From: Microbacterium sp. W4I4 | GTDB lineage: Bacteria > Actinomycetota > Actinomycetes > Actinomycetales > Microbacteriaceae | Assembly: GCF_030816235.1 (NCBI RefSeq) | Contig: NZ_JAUSXT010000001.1 | Coordinates: forward strand, 2,418,001 to 2,482,000 | Reading direction: 5' to 3' | DNA length: 64,000 bases | Shown here: piece after piece, positions 55,576-62,838 of the stretch | Layout of the letters: each line of letters opens with the position of its first letter | Position numbering within the stretch: the stretch's first letter is position 1 | Translations under genes and position numbers: made by a program | The notes under the pieces: model-generated | Database searches by the model: none | What the model was told of the DNA's origin: nothing | The model's input: the letters and a program-made list of their open reading frames with translations, nothing else

Positions 55576-56419
55576 GCGCACATCCCACCCGGTGGTCCTC
55601 GACGCGCGCGACATCGTCGTGCGCTATCCAGGCAACCCGCCCGTGGTGGCCGTGAACGAGGTCTCGCTGCAGGTGCACGCCGGTGAGACGGTCGCCCTGG
55701 TCGGCGAGTCCGGCAGTGGCAAGTCGAGCCTGGCCCGCGCGGCCGTCGGCATCGAGAAACTGGGCGGCGGCTCGGTGCGCTTCCTCGACGGCGAGGTCAT
55801 GCCGATGGGCATCCGCCGCAGGCCGCAGCGGCTCACCGGCATCCAGATGGTCTTCCAGGACCCGTCGACGTCGCTGAACCCGCGGCGTCGGATCGGCGAT
55901 CAGATCGCCGACGGCATCGCCACGGCCCGTGCCCGCGGCGCCGAGGGGTCCCGTGTGGAGGAGTGGCTCGAGAAGGTCGGACTGCCCGCGGCATCCGTCT
56001 CGAAGTACCCGCACCAGTTCTCGGGCGGGCAGAAGCAGCGCATCGCGATCGCCCGTGCGCTCGCCGCGCGCCCGCAGCTGCTCGTCGCCGACGAACCGAT
56101 CTCGGCGCTGGACGCCTCCACCCAGACCAGCGTGGCCGCGCTCATGCGCGACCTCGTCTCGGAGGCCGGGGCCGGGATGCTGTTCATCTCGCACGACCTC
56201 GCAGTGGTGCGCCGCATCGCCGACCGCACCTTCGTGATGTTCTCCGGCCGGGTGCTGGAGTCGGGACCGACGGATCTCGTCTGGGCCGACCCGCAGCATC
56301 CGTACACGCAGGCGCTGCTCGAGGCCATCCCCGAGCCCGATGGCGCGGGCCGCATCCCCGCGACGCCATCGGCCGCAGAGCGGGCGATCTGGGCCGACGT
56401 GCCCGCCGTCGCCCGCTGA
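55568..56419 (+). CDS. ABC transporter ATP-binding protein, DppF-like (operon 2)
   Basis: 283-aa ATPase. Walker A GESGSGKSSLAR, signature FSGGQKQRIA, Walker B LLVADEPISALDA, H-loop SHD. C-terminal peptide-type extension with PYTQALLEAIPEPD. Start at 55568 (MSERTSHPVVLDARDIV) lies within the end of the previous gene. Confidence 0.94.
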   Translation: MSERTSHPVVLDARDIVVRYPGNPPVVAVNEVSLQVHAGETVALVGESGSGKSSLARAAVGIEKLGGGSVRFLDGEVMPMGIRRRPQRLTGIQMVFQDPSTSLNPRRRIGDQIADGIATARARGAEGSRVEEWLEKVGLPAASVSKYPHQFSGGQKQRIAIARALAARPQLLVADEPISALDASTQTSVAALMRDLVSEAGAGMLFISHDLAVVRRIADRTFVMFSGRVLESGPTDLVWADPQHPYTQALLEAIPEPDGAGRIPATPSAAERAIWADVPAVAR

Positions 56420-56485
56420 GATCGAGTCACCTGACGTTCACCCGGACGTCGCCCGCGCGTCAACGGCGCACTGCACCATGAACCG

Positions 56486-57463
56486 GTGGCAGCCCCATCC
56501 GTGACCGTGATCGTGCCGGCGAAGGATGCCGGCGCATTCATCGGCACGACGCTGGAGACCCTCACCCGCCAGTTCGAGGACCGGTCCGCGCTCAAGCTCG
56601 TCGCGATCGACGACGGCTCGAGCGACGACACGGGTGCGATCATGCGCCGTCACGCCCAGGACTTTCCGCATGCGGAGGTGATCGTCAACCCCGAGCCGCG
56701 CGGGCTCGCCACCGCACGAAACCAGGGGCTGGCGCACGTCGAAGGGGAGGCGTTCTGCTTCCTCGACGGTGACGACTGGATGCAGTCGGGCCGCCTGCCG
56801 GTGCTGGCCAGGGCGCTGCACGACATGGACTGCGACTTCGTGCGCACCGACCACGTCACCGTGAAGCGCTCCGAGCGGCGACTCGTGCGCGCGCCGTTCA
56901 CCCACCGCGGCGTCGTCGCCGACCCGCGCGACGCGATCCTGCCCGCCGACGATCGCAGCATGGTCGACTATCCCTACGCGTGGGCCGGGATGCTGCACCG
57001 CCGCGTGCTCGATCAGGGCCTGGCCGGCTTCAGCGACGGGCTGTTCACCGCCGAGGACCGGCCGTGGATCTGGCGGCTGCACCTGAACGCGACCTCCTTC
57101 GCGGTCGTCGACGCCCCGCACCTGCTCTACCGGCGCGGCCTGTCCGACTCGCTGTCGAAGACGCTCGATTCCCGCCAGCTGCACTTCGCCCGAGCGTTCG
57201 GCGAGGTACTCGATCTCGTCGAGGCCGACCGGGAGGCCGAGCGGATGCTGCCCAAGGCCGTCTTCAGCGTGCTGACCCTCAGCTCCCATCATCTGGTCCG
57301 TGCACGGCGGATGCAGCCGGCGGTGCGCAGGGAGCTGCGCTCCGGCATCCGCACCCTGCTGGCGCGTCTGCCGCGCGACCAGGCCGAGGCCGTCGTCGCG
57401 CGCATCGGCGGCCCGCGCCGGCGCGTGCTCGCCCGGGTGCTGAGGGAGGTCGGGCACGCATGA
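56486..57463 (+). CDS. Family 2 glycosyltransferase
   Basis: 325-aa enzyme, first gene of the glycan operon. GT-A features are VTVIVPAKDAGAFIGTTLET, IDDGSSDDTGAI and the metal-binding DGDDWMQSG. The C-terminal helical part (about 220-325) is typical of GT2 proteins that build surface polysaccharide or teichoic acid. GTG start; an ATG 8 bp earlier is out of frame. Its stop overlaps the next ATG (ATGA). Sugar donor unknown. Confidence 0.88.
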   Translation: MAAPSVTVIVPAKDAGAFIGTTLETLTRQFEDRSALKLVAIDDGSSDDTGAIMRRHAQDFPHAEVIVNPEPRGLATARNQGLAHVEGEAFCFLDGDDWMQSGRLPVLARALHDMDCDFVRTDHVTVKRSERRLVRAPFTHRGVVADPRDAILPADDRSMVDYPYAWAGMLHRRVLDQGLAGFSDGLFTAEDRPWIWRLHLNATSFAVVDAPHLLYRRGLSDSLSKTLDSRQLHFARAFGEVLDLVEADREAERMLPKAVFSVLTLSSHHLVRARRMQPAVRRELRSGIRTLLARLPRDQAEAVVARIGGPRRRVLARVLREVGHA

Positions 57464-58815
57464 TCCAGCTGTTCCTGCTGCACAGTCCGTACGGGCTGAT
57501 GACCGCCGCGGCCGCGATCGACGCCGGACTGCTGGGCGATGCCGCGGAGCGCATCCTCGTGCCGACGAACACCGCGGCCGTTCCCGAGACGGCCACCGAT
57601 CTCGCGACCGTGCCTCGGTTCGCGTCGCTGCGGGCGCGCTTCGACCGGGTCGAGCCGCTGGACCCGCTGGTCGACCCGCGGCATCCGACCGCATGGGTTC
57701 CCGACGAGCAGGACCTGCCGATGCTGGAGCGCCTGTTCCGGCGGGCGTGGGATCTCGGCGACGCCGAGCTCGAGGTGTTCGTGCAGTCGCCGCAGGTGGC
57801 TCCCGCCCGCACCCTCATGGCCCTGTTCCGCGACGCGCGACTCGGCGTGATCGGCGACGGGCTGATGACCTACTCACCCATCCGCAGTCGCCTGCCCCGG
57901 CGGATCACCGAGCGCGTCACCCGGGTCGTGCACCCGGACGTGGTTCCCGGAGTCGAGCCGCTGGTGTTCGTCGAGACGGGCGCCTCCCGCGTGCCGGTAC
58001 CCGCCGCGGCGTTCGGGGTCGCGCTGCAGGAGGTCGGCGATGCTTCGCCGGATGCCGCGCTCGACGCCCTCGCCGCCGACGGCGCACGCACCGGCCTTGT
58101 GCTCGGACAGTACCTCGCCGCGCTCGGGTTGATCTCGGCATCCGAGGAGCAGGACATGCAGGCCGAGATGATCGACCGGGCCGCGGATGCCGGTGTGCAG
58201 CGCGTCGTGTTCAAACCGCACCCCTCGGCGCCGCCTGCGCTGACCGAGGCGCTGTCCGCGCGTGCGGCGGTGCGCGGCCTCGCTTTCGCCGTCTACGCAG
58301 GCGATCAGCCCGCGGAGTACGTCGCGCATCGGCTCGCGGCCACCGACGTGATCGCGGGTTTCTCGACGGCCCTGCCGACCGTGCGCGCGATCGCCGGCAC
58401 CCGCACGCACGCCGTCGGCACAGACACCGTTCTCGCGCGGCTTCGTCCGTACCCGAACAGCAACCGGATGCCGGTGACTCTCGTCGACGCGATGGCCCGC
58501 GGCCGATATGAGGAGCCCGGCAGGCTGCAGCAGCTCGTCGATGCGGTCGGCTACGCGATGCAGCCCGAGATCCTCGCGCACCTGCGGGATCCGGCCGCCG
58601 AGTTCCTGGCCGAGCTCGATCCGATGGAACGCGAACGGTACGTGCCGCCGGCGCGACTGCGCGCCGTGGATCTGCCGGGCGCACCGATCCCGACGCGGCT
58701 GCAGCGCGCACTGGCCTCGACCGGCGGGGTCGGACGGGTGGAGGAGCTGCGGCTCACGGCCGCGGGGGCGCGGAACCGAGCTGCACGAGTGTGGAAGGCG
58801 GCGAGAGGCCGATGA
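57460..58815 (+). CDS. Polysialyltransferase-like protein (GT52/DUF6716 neighbourhood)
   Basis: 451-aa soluble protein resembling alpha-2,8-polysialyltransferases of capsule systems. Residues 1-75 look like a Rossmann-type domain (LFLLHSPYGLMTAAAAIDAG). KPHPSAPP at about 250 matches the KPHP signature, and FSTALPTVRAIAG at about 305 the SxALP-like segment. The C-terminal 120 residues are specific. If so, it would transfer a nonulosonic acid. Overlaps next ATG. Exact family assignment is by motif only. Confidence 0.7.
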   Translation: MIQLFLLHSPYGLMTAAAAIDAGLLGDAAERILVPTNTAAVPETATDLATVPRFASLRARFDRVEPLDPLVDPRHPTAWVPDEQDLPMLERLFRRAWDLGDAELEVFVQSPQVAPARTLMALFRDARLGVIGDGLMTYSPIRSRLPRRITERVTRVVHPDVVPGVEPLVFVETGASRVPVPAAAFGVALQEVGDASPDAALDALAADGARTGLVLGQYLAALGLISASEEQDMQAEMIDRAADAGVQRVVFKPHPSAPPALTEALSARAAVRGLAFAVYAGDQPAEYVAHRLAATDVIAGFSTALPTVRAIAGTRTHAVGTDTVLARLRPYPNSNRMPVTLVDAMARGRYEEPGRLQQLVDAVGYAMQPEILAHLRDPAAEFLAELDPMERERYVPPARLRAVDLPGAPIPTRLQRALASTGGVGRVEELRLTAAGARNRAARVWKAARGR

Positions 58816-60002
58816 GCCAGCATGAAGCATCCGAACGCGGCCTGACGGTCGCGATCATCCCCGCCCGCGGCGGATCGAAGGGCGTGCCGGGCAAGAACCT
58901 GCGCAGGGTCGGCGGGATGCCGTTGATCGAGCGGGCCGTGCGGGCGGCATCCGCGGCATCCGGCGTCGACCTCGTCGTCGTCAGCACCGACGACGAGCGG
59001 ATCGCGGCCGTCGCCGAGGGTGCGGGCGCACGGGTCGTCGCGCGGCCGGCAGACCTGTCCGGCGACACGGCGACCTCCGAGAGCGCCCTGATGCACGCGC
59101 TGGACATGCTCGAAGCCGACGGCATCCGGGTCGGCACGATCGTGTTCGTGCAGGCGACGTCGCCGTTCATCCCGAGCGAGGGCATCGCCGAGGCCGTCGA
59201 CCACATCGTCTCCGGACGCTTCGACAGCGTGTTCTCCGCGCACGAGACCTACGGGTTCCTCTGGCGTCGGGATGCCGACGGGCATGCGGTCGCGATCAAC
59301 CACGACGCCGCGCACCGCCCCCGCAGGCAGGACCGCGAGCCGCATCACCTGGAGACCGGGGCGTTCTACGCCTTCGATGCGGCCGGGTTCCGCCGCTTCC
59401 AGCACCGCTTCTTCGGGCTGGTCGGGATCGTCGACGTGCCCGAGCGCACCGCCATCGAGATCGACGACGAGCATCAGCTCGCGGTCGCCGAGGCGCTGGC
59501 TGCGGCAACTGCGGGAGTTGACGCCGGAGCAGCGGATGCCGCGATCACGGCATCCGCCCTCGTCACCGACTTCGACGGCGTGCACACCGACGACACCGCC
59601 ACGGTCGACAGCGAGGGACGCGAATCGGTGCGCGTGAGCCGTGAAGACGGCATGGGCGTCTCGCGGCTGCGCCGCGCCGGCATCCCGATGCTCATCCTCT
59701 CCACCGAGCAGAACCCCGTCGTCGCCCGCCGAGCCGAGAAGCTGCAGGTGCCGGTGCTTCACGGCATCGACGACAAGGCCGCCGCGCTCACCGCATGGGC
59801 GACGGAGAACGGCATCCGTCTGGCCGACATCGCCTACGTCGGCAACGACGTGAACGACCTGGGCTCGCTCGGCATCGTCGGCTGGCCGATCGCCGTCGCG
59901 AACGCCCACCCCGAGGTGAAGGCAGCAGCGCGTGTGGTGCTCACCCGCCGCGGCGGCGAGGGAGCGGTCCGCGAGGTCATCGAGCGGATGCTGCCCCGCT
60001 GA
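58812..60002 (+). CDS. CMP-nonulosonate cytidylyltransferase fused to HAD phosphatase (NeuA-KdsC-like)
   Basis: 396-aa two-domain enzyme. Domain 1 (1-225): AIIPARGGSKGVPGKNL, ATSPFI and related NeuA motifs, activating a nine-carbon acid with CTP. Domain 2 (250-396): HAD motif TDFDGVHTD (Asp253, Asp255), Lys in IDDKAAAL and GNDVND (344-349), like KdsC or the second half of vertebrate CMAS. A phosphatase may remove the 9-phosphate made by NeuB-type synthase. ATG overlaps the previous stop. Confidence 0.87.
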   Translation: MSQHEASERGLTVAIIPARGGSKGVPGKNLRRVGGMPLIERAVRAASAASGVDLVVVSTDDERIAAVAEGAGARVVARPADLSGDTATSESALMHALDMLEADGIRVGTIVFVQATSPFIPSEGIAEAVDHIVSGRFDSVFSAHETYGFLWRRDADGHAVAINHDAAHRPRRQDREPHHLETGAFYAFDAAGFRRFQHRFFGLVGIVDVPERTAIEIDDEHQLAVAEALAAATAGVDAGAADAAITASALVTDFDGVHTDDTATVDSEGRESVRVSREDGMGVSRLRRAGIPMLILSTEQNPVVARRAEKLQVPVLHGIDDKAAALTAWATENGIRLADIAYVGNDVNDLGSLGIVGWPIAVANAHPEVKAAARVVLTRRGGEGAVREVIERMLPR

Positions 60003-60124
60003 CTTCCTGCTCCCGTTCGTCGCACGGGCTTCCGCGAACGGTCACCGGCGCGTCCTTCCCGGTTCACCTGGCGCACGTACACCTGGAAGACAGGATCGGA
60101 GTACCAACGGAACGGAGCGTCCTC

Positions 60125-60997
60125 ATGACCGTCAGCATCGCAGACCGTGTGATCGGTGAGGGCCGACCCACCTACGTCATCGCCGAGATCGGACTGAACC
60201 ACAACGGTGACGTCGAGATCGCCAAGCAGCTCATCGACGTCGCCCGTGCCGCCGGCGCGGATGCCGTGAAGTTCCAGAAGCGCACCCCCGAGATCGCCAC
60301 GCCCGAGCACATGCGCGACGTGCCGCGCGAGACGCCGTGGGGCACCATGAGCTACCTCGACTACCGCCGCCGCGTGGAGTTCGGACGCGACGAGTACGTC
60401 GAGATCGGCGACTACGCCACCCTGGCCGGACTGCACTGGTTCGCCTCGCCGTGGGATGTGCCCAGCGTCGAGTTCCTCGAAGACCTGAACGTCGTCGCGC
60501 ACAAGGTGGCATCTGCGAGCCTGACCGACACCGAGCTGCTGCAGGCGCTGCGCGACACGGGCAAGCCCGTCATCCTCTCCACGGGAATGTCGACCATCGA
60601 GCAGGTCGACCGCGCCCTGGACACCCTCGGCACTGATCGCACCATCCTCATGCACGCCACCTCCACGTACCCGATGGAGTCCGGCGAGGCGAACCTCAAG
60701 ATGATCTCCACGCTGCGCGACCGATACGCCGGCGTGCCCGTCGGCTACTCCGGCCACGAGCGCGGACTGCAGATCTCGCTGGCCGCCGTCGCGCTCGGCG
60801 CGGTCGCCGTGGAACGCCACATCACCCTCGACCGCGCCATGTGGGGTTCCGATCACGCCGCCTCGCTGGAGCCGGGCGGCCTGGAGCGCCTGGTGCGCGA
60901 CATCCGCGTGATCGAAGAAGCACTCGGCGACGGCGTCAAGCGGGTCTACCCGGGCGAGCTGGCGCCGATGGCCAAGCTGCGCCGCGTCGGGGCATGA
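60125..60997 (+). CDS. NeuB-family nonulosonate synthase, SAF-less
   Basis: 290-aa PEP-dependent aldolase that condenses PEP with a six-carbon sugar. Motifs: AEIGLNHNGD (21-29), KFQKRTPE, STGMSTIEQVD, ATSTYPMES and HITLDRAMWGSDHAAS. It stops right after the TIM barrel: the C-terminal SAF domain of N-acetylneuraminate synthases is absent. That suggests a Kdn-9-phosphate or related synthase (inference). Overlaps the next ATG by 4 bases; a 122-bp gap separates it from the fused NeuA gene. Confidence 0.86.
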   Translation: MTVSIADRVIGEGRPTYVIAEIGLNHNGDVEIAKQLIDVARAAGADAVKFQKRTPEIATPEHMRDVPRETPWGTMSYLDYRRRVEFGRDEYVEIGDYATLAGLHWFASPWDVPSVEFLEDLNVVAHKVASASLTDTELLQALRDTGKPVILSTGMSTIEQVDRALDTLGTDRTILMHATSTYPMESGEANLKMISTLRDRYAGVPVGYSGHERGLQISLAAVALGAVAVERHITLDRAMWGSDHAASLEPGGLERLVRDIRVIEEALGDGVKRVYPGELAPMAKLRRVGA

Positions 60998-62316
60998 CCT
61001 ACCCGGGCAGCCGGGAGCCCCGGCTGCGCGTGGTCGCCATCGGCGATGCCGACTCGTTCGTGAAGTGGGCGGCGCACCTGATCGACCGCCTCGACGACAT
61101 CAGCCAGCACCTGCTGCTGGTGGACACTCCGCTGGTGGTCAGCGACGCGCAGAAGGATGCCGCGCTCGCGGACACCCGCTTCGCCACGCGCCAGCAGTCG
61201 GTCAGCCGCGTCGCCTTCAGTGCGGTCGTCGAGTGGCTGGCGCGGGATGCGCCGGATGTCGTGGTGCTGGCCGGCCGTGCGCCGTTCGTGCGACTGATGA
61301 GCCGGGAGATCGACCGCCTCGCACGCCGACCGGTCGTGGTGAGCGGCCTGCCCGGGATGTCGATCCCCGCGCTGCGCGGCGCACTGGAGTACCGACGGCA
61401 CTGCGACCTGATGGTGGTGCACTCCCGCCGCGAGGTGGCCGCGTACGCCCGGCTCGGGCGCACCATCGGCGTCTCGGTTCCGATCGCCCTCGCCCGGCTC
61501 CCTTTCGCGCAGCGCTCCACCGAGCGGCAGGGCGGGACGGACCTCGTGTTCGCCGCGCAGGCCCTCGTGCCGCAGTCCCGCGATGACCGGCGTCGGATCG
61601 CGGAGATCCTGCGCCTCGCGGCCGTCGCCGACCCCACCAGACGCGTGGTCGTGAAGCTGCGCTCCCGGCCGGGTGAGGTCGAGGCGCACCGGGAGCGCGA
61701 CGGCTACACCGAGCTGCTGGAGAACGCTCCCGAGAACCTCGTCTTCTCGTTCGCGCCGATGTCCGAGGCGCTCGCCACGGCGGAGGGGCTGGTCACCGTC
61801 AGCTCCACCGCGGCGATCGAAGCGCTCGCCGCGGGCGTGCCCGTGATCGCCCTCGACACCTTCGGTATCCGGCCCGAGCTGCTCAACAGGGTCTTCGAGG
61901 AGAGCGGCCTGCTGGGCAGCGCGGATGACGTGGTGGCCCGGCGGTTCCGGCATCCGGACCCCCGCTGGGCGACCACCAACTACTTCCACGACCCGCGGGA
62001 CTCGCTCTGGTGGGATCAGGCGCGACGGCTGGTCGCTCTGCGCCGACAGGGGATGCTGCCCGCCCGCGTCGTTCCGCAGCCGCGCGGCGGTGCGCTGCAC
62101 GCCGCGTGGCACCGCCGGAACGTGCTGGGCGCGCACGACCGCTCCGTCTCCGGGCGGGTGGCGGGGTTGCTCGTCACTCCGGCCATCGCCGCTCTCATCG
62201 CGCTGAAGCGCCGGCGGGGTGGCCGGGATGCCGTGCCTGCTGAGGGCGGGACGATGGATGCCGGTACGCAGGACTTCCTGCTGACGCCGAGCCCGCTGCG
62301 CGAAGCGATCGGCTGA
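60994..62316 (+). CDS. Glycosyltransferase-like protein (DUF6716 type)
   Basis: 440-aa protein, last gene of the glycan operon. A first domain of about 170 residues (LRVVAIGDADSFVKWAAHLI) is followed by a GT-B-like C-terminal domain with TVSSTAAIEALAAGVPVIAL and GIRPELLNRVFEESGL, as in DUF6716 putative glycosyltransferases. One hydrophobic C-terminal stretch (VAGLLVTPAIAALIALK) could associate with the membrane. Substrate unknown. Confidence 0.75.
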   Translation: MTYPGSREPRLRVVAIGDADSFVKWAAHLIDRLDDISQHLLLVDTPLVVSDAQKDAALADTRFATRQQSVSRVAFSAVVEWLARDAPDVVVLAGRAPFVRLMSREIDRLARRPVVVSGLPGMSIPALRGALEYRRHCDLMVVHSRREVAAYARLGRTIGVSVPIALARLPFAQRSTERQGGTDLVFAAQALVPQSRDDRRRIAEILRLAAVADPTRRVVVKLRSRPGEVEAHRERDGYTELLENAPENLVFSFAPMSEALATAEGLVTVSSTAAIEALAAGVPVIALDTFGIRPELLNRVFEESGLLGSADDVVARRFRHPDPRWATTNYFHDPRDSLWWDQARRLVALRRQGMLPARVVPQPRGGALHAAWHRRNVLGAHDRSVSGRVAGLLVTPAIAALIALKRRRGGRDAVPAEGGTMDAGTQDFLLTPSPLREAIG

Positions 62317-62355
62317 CCGTTCAGGTCGGGGTCCGCACTCACAGCCGGGATCCGG

Positions 62356-62361
62356 TAGACT
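62356..62361 (+). promoter_or_regulatory. Probable -10 element of the rpsF operon
   Basis: TAGACT with a leader of roughly 105 nt to the rpsF GTG. The following leader contains the upstream ORF and hairpin below. Confidence 0.55.
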
Positions 62362-62407
62362 TCTGAGGTTGTCTGCCCGGCGGCGCCTTGCCGAAGGAGC
62401 AGACGAC

Positions 62408-62476
62408 ATGCACACACCCTCCTGCTTCCGGGAAAGCCCCGGGAGCCGTTCTAGTCCGAAGGAGGTGGGTAAGTGA
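62408..62476 (+). CDS. Leader ORF upstream of rpsF (22 codons)
   Basis: ATG at 62408 with AAGGAG 8 nt upstream (62394-62399) opens a 22-residue frame, [20 protein letters not shown] then GK, whose TGA overlaps the rpsF GTG (GTGA). The rpsF Shine-Dalgarno lies inside its last codons. Either it is a real coupled leader peptide or a chance frame in the ribosomal-protein leader. It is too short for composition to decide. Confidence 0.5.
62424..62446 (+). promoter_or_regulatory. Leader hairpin before rpsF (possible S6:S18 binding site)
   Basis: GCTTCCGGG and CCCGGGAGC pair over 9 bp (one G-U) around AAAGC, about 26 nt before the rpsF GTG. rpsF-rpsR leaders of bacteria often carry a hairpin bound by the S6:S18 pair with a CCG motif; the match here is suggestive only. 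Confidence 0.5.
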
Positions 62477-62838
62477 CGCACCAGTACGAGCTCATGGTCA
62501 TTCTGACCCCCGAGCTGGACGAGCGCCAGGTTGCCCCCAACCTCGACAAGTTCCTGAAGGTCATCACCAACGATGGTGGCTCGATTGACAAGGTCGATGT
62601 CTGGGGCAAGCGCCGTTTCGCCTATGAGATCAACAAGAAGAACGAGGGCATCTACGCCGTCGTCAACTTCACCGCGACGAGCGAGGCCACTCAGGAGCTC
62701 GACCGCCAGCTGAAGCTGAGCGAGCTCGTCTTCCGCACCAAGGTCCAGCGCGCCGAAGAGGCGCAGGCCATGGTCGCAGCCGAGGCGAAGCGCGCAGCCG
62801 AGAAGGCAGCTCGCAAGCCCAAGGTCGCGAAGGCGTAA
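62473..62838 (+). CDS. rpsF: 30S ribosomal protein S6
   Basis: 121-aa bS6. [20 protein letters not shown] and [20 protein letters not shown] are the standard ferredoxin-like halves. Basic Ala/Lys-rich C-terminus ([20 protein letters not shown]) is typical of actinobacteria. GTG start with AAGGAGGTG upstream. ssb follows after 6 bp. Confidence 0.97.

Follow-up and report, generated by a model that had tools for sequence, protein, structure and literature searches.

The operon and its genes

The stretch of DNA considered here (the window: 64,000 nucleotides of Microbacterium sp. W4I4, contig NZ_JAUSXT010000001.1, positions 2,418,001 to 2,482,000) carries at positions 56,486 to 62,316 a compact operon whose five genes point to the synthesis of a nonulosonic acid, probably Kdn (2-keto-3-deoxynononic acid), and to its use in a surface polymer. 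The genes and their parts are as follows (aa, amino acids):

56486-57463, forward strand: GT2 glycosyltransferase, 325 aa, GTG start (Pfam Glycos_transf_2, 93.3 bits)
57460-58815, forward strand: polysialyltransferase-like (polyST-like) protein, 451 aa (PF07388, A-2_8-polyST, 53.5 bits, cut-off 23.3)
58812-60002, forward strand: NeuA-HAD, 396 aa (Pfam CTP_transf_3, 92 bits; HAD half over the Hydrolase_3 cut-off)
about 58845-59501, forward strand: NeuA part of NeuA-HAD, CMP-nonulosonate synthetase
59526-59999, forward strand: HAD part of NeuA-HAD, HAD phosphatase
60003-60124, forward strand: gap of 122 bp between NeuA-HAD and NeuB
60125-60997, forward strand: SAF-less NeuB, 290 aa (Pfam NeuB, PF03102, 261.2 bits, cut-off 22.1)
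60994-62316, forward strand: DUF6716 protein, 440 aa (Pfam DUF6716, 403 bits)

The five-gene observation, first made in an initial annotation of the letters, is confirmed: all five genes score over their Pfam cut-offs, the assigned identities agree with the Pfam and PDB-chain matches, and the "mostly" overlapping layout described there amounts to ATGA overlaps at three of the four junctions (57460, 58812 and 60994), the fourth being the 122-bp gap. The cluster is not a chance assembly, since at least 8000 candidates match its NeuB at E<=1e-30 and the neighborhood is conserved.

Enzymes predicted to make CMP-Kdn

Relatives were taken from a scan of named genomes in which the best 80 of at least 586 NeuB loci were kept (the named loci). 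NeuA and HAD form one open frame wherever both halves are seen (71 of 71 named loci); in five of the 80, truncated by contig ends, NeuA or both halves are missing. Among PDB chains the NeuA half matches 9t4z best (PpNeuA, 111 bits), followed by 6ifd (95), 1qwj (87) and 1eyr (81); to judge from its chain name, 9t4z would be the CMP-Kdn synthetase of Prymnesium parvum, an enzyme reported not to use N-acetylneuraminic acid (Neu5Ac; PMC6200933; published work is cited throughout from the available part of each source).

Among the phosphatase models, the HAD half scores best against that for Kdn-9-phosphate phosphatase (NF058599, 108 bits); the KdsC model also detects it, below its cut-off. This half has the conserved HAD motifs DFDG (residues 253-256) and GND (344-346), and its PDB matches include 3mmz (177 bits) and 3ewi (51 bits). 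PDB chain 3e81 we take to be the Kdn-9-phosphatase BT1713 of Bacteroides, whose specificity is presumably set by Glu56 and Lys67; by alignment, 4hgq is the 3e81 chain with Glu56 changed to Ala, and 4hgr is the same chain with both Glu56 and Lys67 changed to Ala. The HAD half in the window has E299 and K310 at these two positions; of the 71 named loci that align there (each gene counted once), 70 retain the first residue and 70 the second, and the KdsC chain 4um5 differs at both. On this evidence the HAD half would work like a Kdn-9-phosphate phosphatase, although it is not filed as one.

Three known systems bear comparison. The NeuA-then-HAD order is that of vertebrate CMAS, as had been pointed out, and as a statement on domain order this is right: the two halves match 1qwj and 3ewi (both of which we take to be mouse CMAS), although the 3ewi match is weak beside that to 3mmz. 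The Kdn pathway of Bacteroides thetaiotaomicron, presumably encoded by the separate genes BT1713-BT1715, shares with the window the three activities, the same HAD-type phosphatase and both of the residues altered in the mutant chains; it differs in that synthetase and phosphatase are fused in the window and the HAD half lies below the curated cut-off. P. parvum, the probable source of the best match to the NeuA half, has a synthase specific for mannose-6-phosphate (Man-6-P) and a Kdn-specific CMP synthetase, but a homolog of the Kdn-9-phosphate phosphatase was not found there, as far as the available part of the source goes (PMC6200933).

The NeuB of the operon has no SAF domain at E<=1 in Pfam and stops 18 residues past its Pfam NeuB match; in relatives fetched far enough to include the stop, the protein ends at a place corresponding to residue 287-307. 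Its match to TIGR03569 (the N-acetylneuraminate synthase equivalog) covers model positions 1-273 of 329. In a tree of 40 hand-chosen rows it falls in a 25-row branch (support 100/99) that takes in the whole actinobacterial clade (22 rows), one further locus (L142) and two plasmid rows, from Methylomagnum (a gammaproteobacterium) and Hymenobacter (Bacteroidota), and whose members end a few to about 20 residues from the end of the window NeuB. Rows outside this branch have at least 53 residues after the match, except for one cut by a contig end, these tails being known by length alone. A HAD-IIIA gene comes after NeuB in Methylomagnum and does not in Hymenobacter. The window NeuB is predicted to be a Kdn-9-phosphate synthase that joins Man-6-P and phosphoenolpyruvate (PEP).

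Further, NeuA, HAD and NeuB together form a single open frame of roughly 700 aa in 20 of the 80 named loci, 19 of them from Streptosporangiaceae genera and one from Isoptericola luteus (L053, 8654-10867; the others are L055, L056, L058-L061, L065-L069, L073-L076 and L078-L081), and besides these in loci L124 and L125. The linker of the Streptosporangiaceae fusions is Ala/Pro-rich and starts with AARP in 17. In I. luteus the divergent neighbor of the fused gene (L053, 7195-8457) encodes a type I mannose-6-phosphate isomerase (PMI). The one-frame fusion ties the three activities together and, with the Isoptericola isomerase as neighbor, perhaps ties Man-6-P to them as well; the fused frame is predicted to be a CMP-Kdn synthase containing three enzymes. 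A literature search, with subscription journals outside its scope, found nothing relevant on such a fusion. Planobispora rosea carries it (L056), and the cluster of a second P. rosea strain has been published as Pho-controlled teichuronic acid genes, with a sialic acid synthase paired with SCO4880, where the fused gene would fit (PMC8269224); the better guess is that the product is a teichulosonic rather than a teichuronic acid. We tentatively propose, with the balance tipping slightly the other way, that the SAF-less branch is a lineage of dedicated, Man-6-P-specific Kdn-9-phosphate synthases which lost SAF when there was no longer an N-acetyl group to hold, and that the Streptosporangiaceae carry the whole pathway from Man-6-P to CMP-Kdn as one three-enzyme polypeptide.

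The three transferase candidates

The polyST-like protein is likely a CMP-Kdn-using transferase; its residues DG (133-134), FKPHP (251-255) and FST (301-303) are invariant or nearly so in an alignment of 37 sequences (the window and 36 of 47 candidates). The GT2 protein, whose relatives occur near the same gene set in other loci, probably adds a neutral hexose of the repeat unit, and the DUF6716 protein is probably a glycosyltransferase as well. Sequence comparison gave no convincing link between DUF6716 and the polyST-like protein, or between either of them and solved structures.

A fold search (VIA-align) showed that DUF6716 resembles both UDP-GlcNAc 2-epimerases and GT-B transferases, a likeness that raised the question of whether it might be the missing epimerase, that is, a disguised hydrolyzing UDP-sugar 2-epimerase that supplies N-acetylmannosamine (ManNAc), in which case NeuC would not be missing at all. 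We consider this very improbable. In five WecB/NeuC proteins a Gly-Asp pair is invariant (with Asp changed to Asn in PDB 8sxw), but residues 92-98 of DUF6716 contain neither Asp nor Glu in any of 43 sequences (the window and 42 of 72 candidates; both alignments were thinned by hand), the correspondence of catalytic residues being placed by strand order, not by superposition. Since the catalytic Asp of the epimerases thus appears to be missing, DUF6716 is unlikely to be a hidden NeuC. A profile comparison aligned the C-terminal half alone, with a probability of 18%, and two DUF6716 copies flank locus L126.

Relatives and the Streptomyces comparison

The best 80 loci come from Microbacterium, Agromyces and other Microbacteriaceae, Isoptericola, Timonella, Kineosporia and Streptosporangiaceae (including Nonomuraea, Herbidospora, Streptosporangium and Planobispora), and the four closest named NeuB genes among the matches listed are from Microbacterium, at 92-97% identity. 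Some of the 80 are cut by contig ends; gene complements were counted on the 66 that have flanks longer than 5 kb on each side: NeuA is present in 66, the HAD half in 62, DUF6716 in 59, and GT2 and polyST together in 32. None of these features is peculiar to this operon: dozens of actinobacteria share the NeuA-HAD fusion, the SAF-less NeuB and the absence of a NeuC nearby as traits of the family.

A wider view came from an even class sample of 246 genomes, 73 of which have a NeuB match; 44 of these share at least 63% identity (the best of the rest reaches 51%) and form the clade of this NeuB. One family, 19 of the 44, is of a Streptomyces type, so named through the NeuB relatives of one member (top hit 98%), and its HAD halves are up to 96% identical to PDB 3mmz, a chain we take to come from Streptomyces avermitilis. 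In all eight Streptomyces-type regions fetched, from 8 of these 19 genomes, the five families of the window occur together, with polyST and GT2 divergent from DUF6716, NeuA and NeuB; the HAD half is fused to NeuA in seven. In the eighth (L122, 9291-10065) NeuA stops and no HAD precedes NeuB; this is one of two copies in its genome. In one region (L117), two Methyltransf_24 proteins and an acyltransferase are encoded alongside polyST and GT2, and the flank next to NeuB codes for Bmp-type binding proteins and an ABC transporter.

In Streptomyces coelicolor, SCO4873-SCO4882 has been named a teichulosonic acid gene cluster, after Ostash 2014 (PMC13011467); SCO4881 is listed as NeuB (PMC2367054), SCO4878 as a glycosyltransferase (GT2) and SCO4880 as a putative transferase (PMC2267785). 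By gene order and annotation, the fetched regions are consistent with SCO4877-SCO4881. Like the window, this system groups a polyST-like protein, GT2, DUF6716, NeuA-HAD and SAF-less NeuB, as seen in the Streptomyces-type regions, but it is arranged divergently, whereas the window has a single-direction run. Our reading of the Streptomyces regions is that the five families encoded together define a teichulosonic locus, and in the window all five are encoded together. The suggestion that such an operon could make a Kdn surface polymer is supported by this co-occurrence, and the accompanying statement that Kdn polymers occur in actinobacterial walls agrees with the literature: Kdn is reported in the cell walls of Streptomyces (PMC11481543), a Kdn teichulosonic acid in Promicromonospora citrea (PMC6801904), and a teichuronic or teichulosonic acid in Kribbella (PMC6113628).

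Which sugar enters the pathway

No NeuC is encoded in the operon, as had been noted, and the best match to TIGR03568 in the whole genome scores 67.6 bits, where the cut-off is 235.9. We reject a NeuC elsewhere in the genome, both Epimerase_2 genes scoring over the cut-off for non-hydrolyzing WecB. One of these two (L002, 1471-2550) is closest in the PDB to UDP-2,3-diacetamido-glucuronate 2-epimerase and, by eye, has a flippase-like neighbor, so that it perhaps marks a second surface polysaccharide locus. Within the 80 named loci neither NeuC nor NanE was found by tblastn with one query each. NeuC is over its cut-off in none of the 44 clade genomes, NanE in six (one of them borderline) and PF07221 is matched in eight; 32 have none of the three and thus no recognized source of ManNAc or ManNAc-6-phosphate (ManNAc-6-P), and the same is true of 16 of the 19 Streptomyces-type genomes. 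A type I PMI is present in 43 of the 44. NeuC occurs in 3 of the 29 genomes with other NeuB types, adjoining NeuB in each.

Many bacteria start from an unphosphorylated sugar and need no phosphatase (PMC6200933). A separate phosphatase implies a phosphorylated substrate, either Man-6-P (giving Kdn) or ManNAc-6-P (giving Neu5Ac). By the latter, animal-type route, NanE would supply ManNAc-6-P from GlcNAc-6-P, NeuB would make Neu5Ac-9-phosphate, HAD and NeuA would complete the precursor, and the polyST-like protein would build it into a sialic acid polymer. A fused phosphatase suits any phosphorylated nonulosonate, PF07388 is the polysialyltransferase family, and in the host genome two NanE genes exceed the cut-off and PF07221 (AGE-family) is weakly matched (79.5 bits), so that ManNAc-6-P or ManNAc could be available here; the host is one of the 12 exceptions among the 44 that have such a source. 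We nevertheless judge the Neu5Ac route unlikely. Just 6 of the 44 genomes of this NeuB clade have NanE, and 16 of the 19 Streptomyces-type genomes do without any of the three genes despite having the same NeuB. Both nanE genes of the host lie outside the operon in catabolic-looking surroundings (G000:C1:2270001-2288000 and 2158001-2174000), one near a binding-protein sugar ABC transporter and the other beside a LacI regulator and large proteins with F5/8-type domains, which suggests that they serve catabolism. The genome search proposed at the outset found no NeuC over the cut-off and two WecB-type genes, but also these alternative entry points.

The ManNAc sources of the host weigh against Kdn as the product, and so do several other findings. 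NeuA stands without the HAD half in 4 of the 75 named loci that have NeuA; the HAD half falls under the NF058599 cut-off (108 against 180 bits) and NeuB under that of TIGR03569 (254.8 against 399.65 bits); PMI is in the flanks of 1 of the 80 named loci, the Isoptericola one (tblastn, two queries); and a literature search, with subscription journals outside its scope, gave nothing relevant on Kdn chemistry in Microbacterium or Agromyces. The difference in NeuC between the clade and other NeuB types (0 of 44 against 3 of 29) is not significant alone (p = 0.059), and the absence of NeuC is accordingly weak as stand-alone proof of Kdn. PMI linkage is likewise a weak general signal, being seen within about 16 kb of NeuB in three of the 44 sample genomes (G110, G171 and G180, all of one family) when coordinates were compared by hand. 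With two NanE genes and a PF07221 match in the host, the original argument for Kdn from Man-6-P was too loose where it leaned on the missing NeuC; what upholds it is the co-occurrence in Streptomyces and the 32 genomes lacking a ManNAc source.

The proposed pathway and its product

It is quite probable, from the genes and their distribution, that enzymes of the operon synthesize CMP-Kdn for incorporation into a cell-surface polymer, most likely a cell-wall teichulosonic acid. The Kdn reading fits best because the five families recur in Streptomyces, for which Kdn teichulosonic acid is reported, and 32 of the 44 genomes have no ManNAc source. Each reaction, the product, the three transferase roles and the wall location are what we infer from the gene families, their conserved linkage, the Streptomyces co-occurrence and the lack of any NeuC gene over the cut-off. 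An ordinary isomerase would supply Man-6-P, the SAF-less NeuB would condense it with PEP to Kdn-9-phosphate, the HAD half of NeuA-HAD would remove the phosphate and the NeuA half would make CMP-Kdn. The polyST-like protein would then transfer Kdn, GT2 and DUF6716 would add the partner sugar(s) or a second linkage, and export and attachment to peptidoglycan would be left to proteins encoded outside the operon.

That last step is where a different product has to be considered, since no exporter or ligation gene is seen among the five, and GT2 and polyST are lacking in 34 of the 66 fully flanked loci, so that the polymer must vary. Kdn or another nonulosonate might decorate a glycoprotein, a glycolipid or a loose exopolysaccharide. 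Against this stands the occurrence of the same families in Streptomyces, where the Kdn polymer is wall-bound according to the available parts of the published work, and we regard a product outside the wall as a minority possibility, though less remote than the Neu5Ac route.

Genome setting

The host genome (3.84 Mb, one contig) is rated 100% complete. Read from their translations, the 5' neighbors of the operon resemble oligopeptide ABC transporter genes and the 3' neighbors are rpsF and ssb; rpsF is also in a flank of 6 of the 80 named loci, all Microbacterium. No sigma-70-like promoter or terminator match was found in 56300-62500, and no RNA family was matched.

Implications

We regard the operon as a further example of a known Streptomyces-type system; what is new is the assignment of its enzymes, together with the SAF-less branch and the fusion of three enzymes. 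The assignments suggest functions for genes of the Streptomyces wall-polymer region that carry hypothetical or putative labels in the available part of PMC2267785. If the reading is true, a single fused protein should produce CMP-Kdn from Man-6-P, PEP and CTP, and the combination of SAF-less NeuB, NeuA-HAD and no NeuC would be a sequence signature that predicts Kdn. Kdn, usually deemed rare, would then be predicted for very many soil actinobacteria, including Microbacterium and its family.

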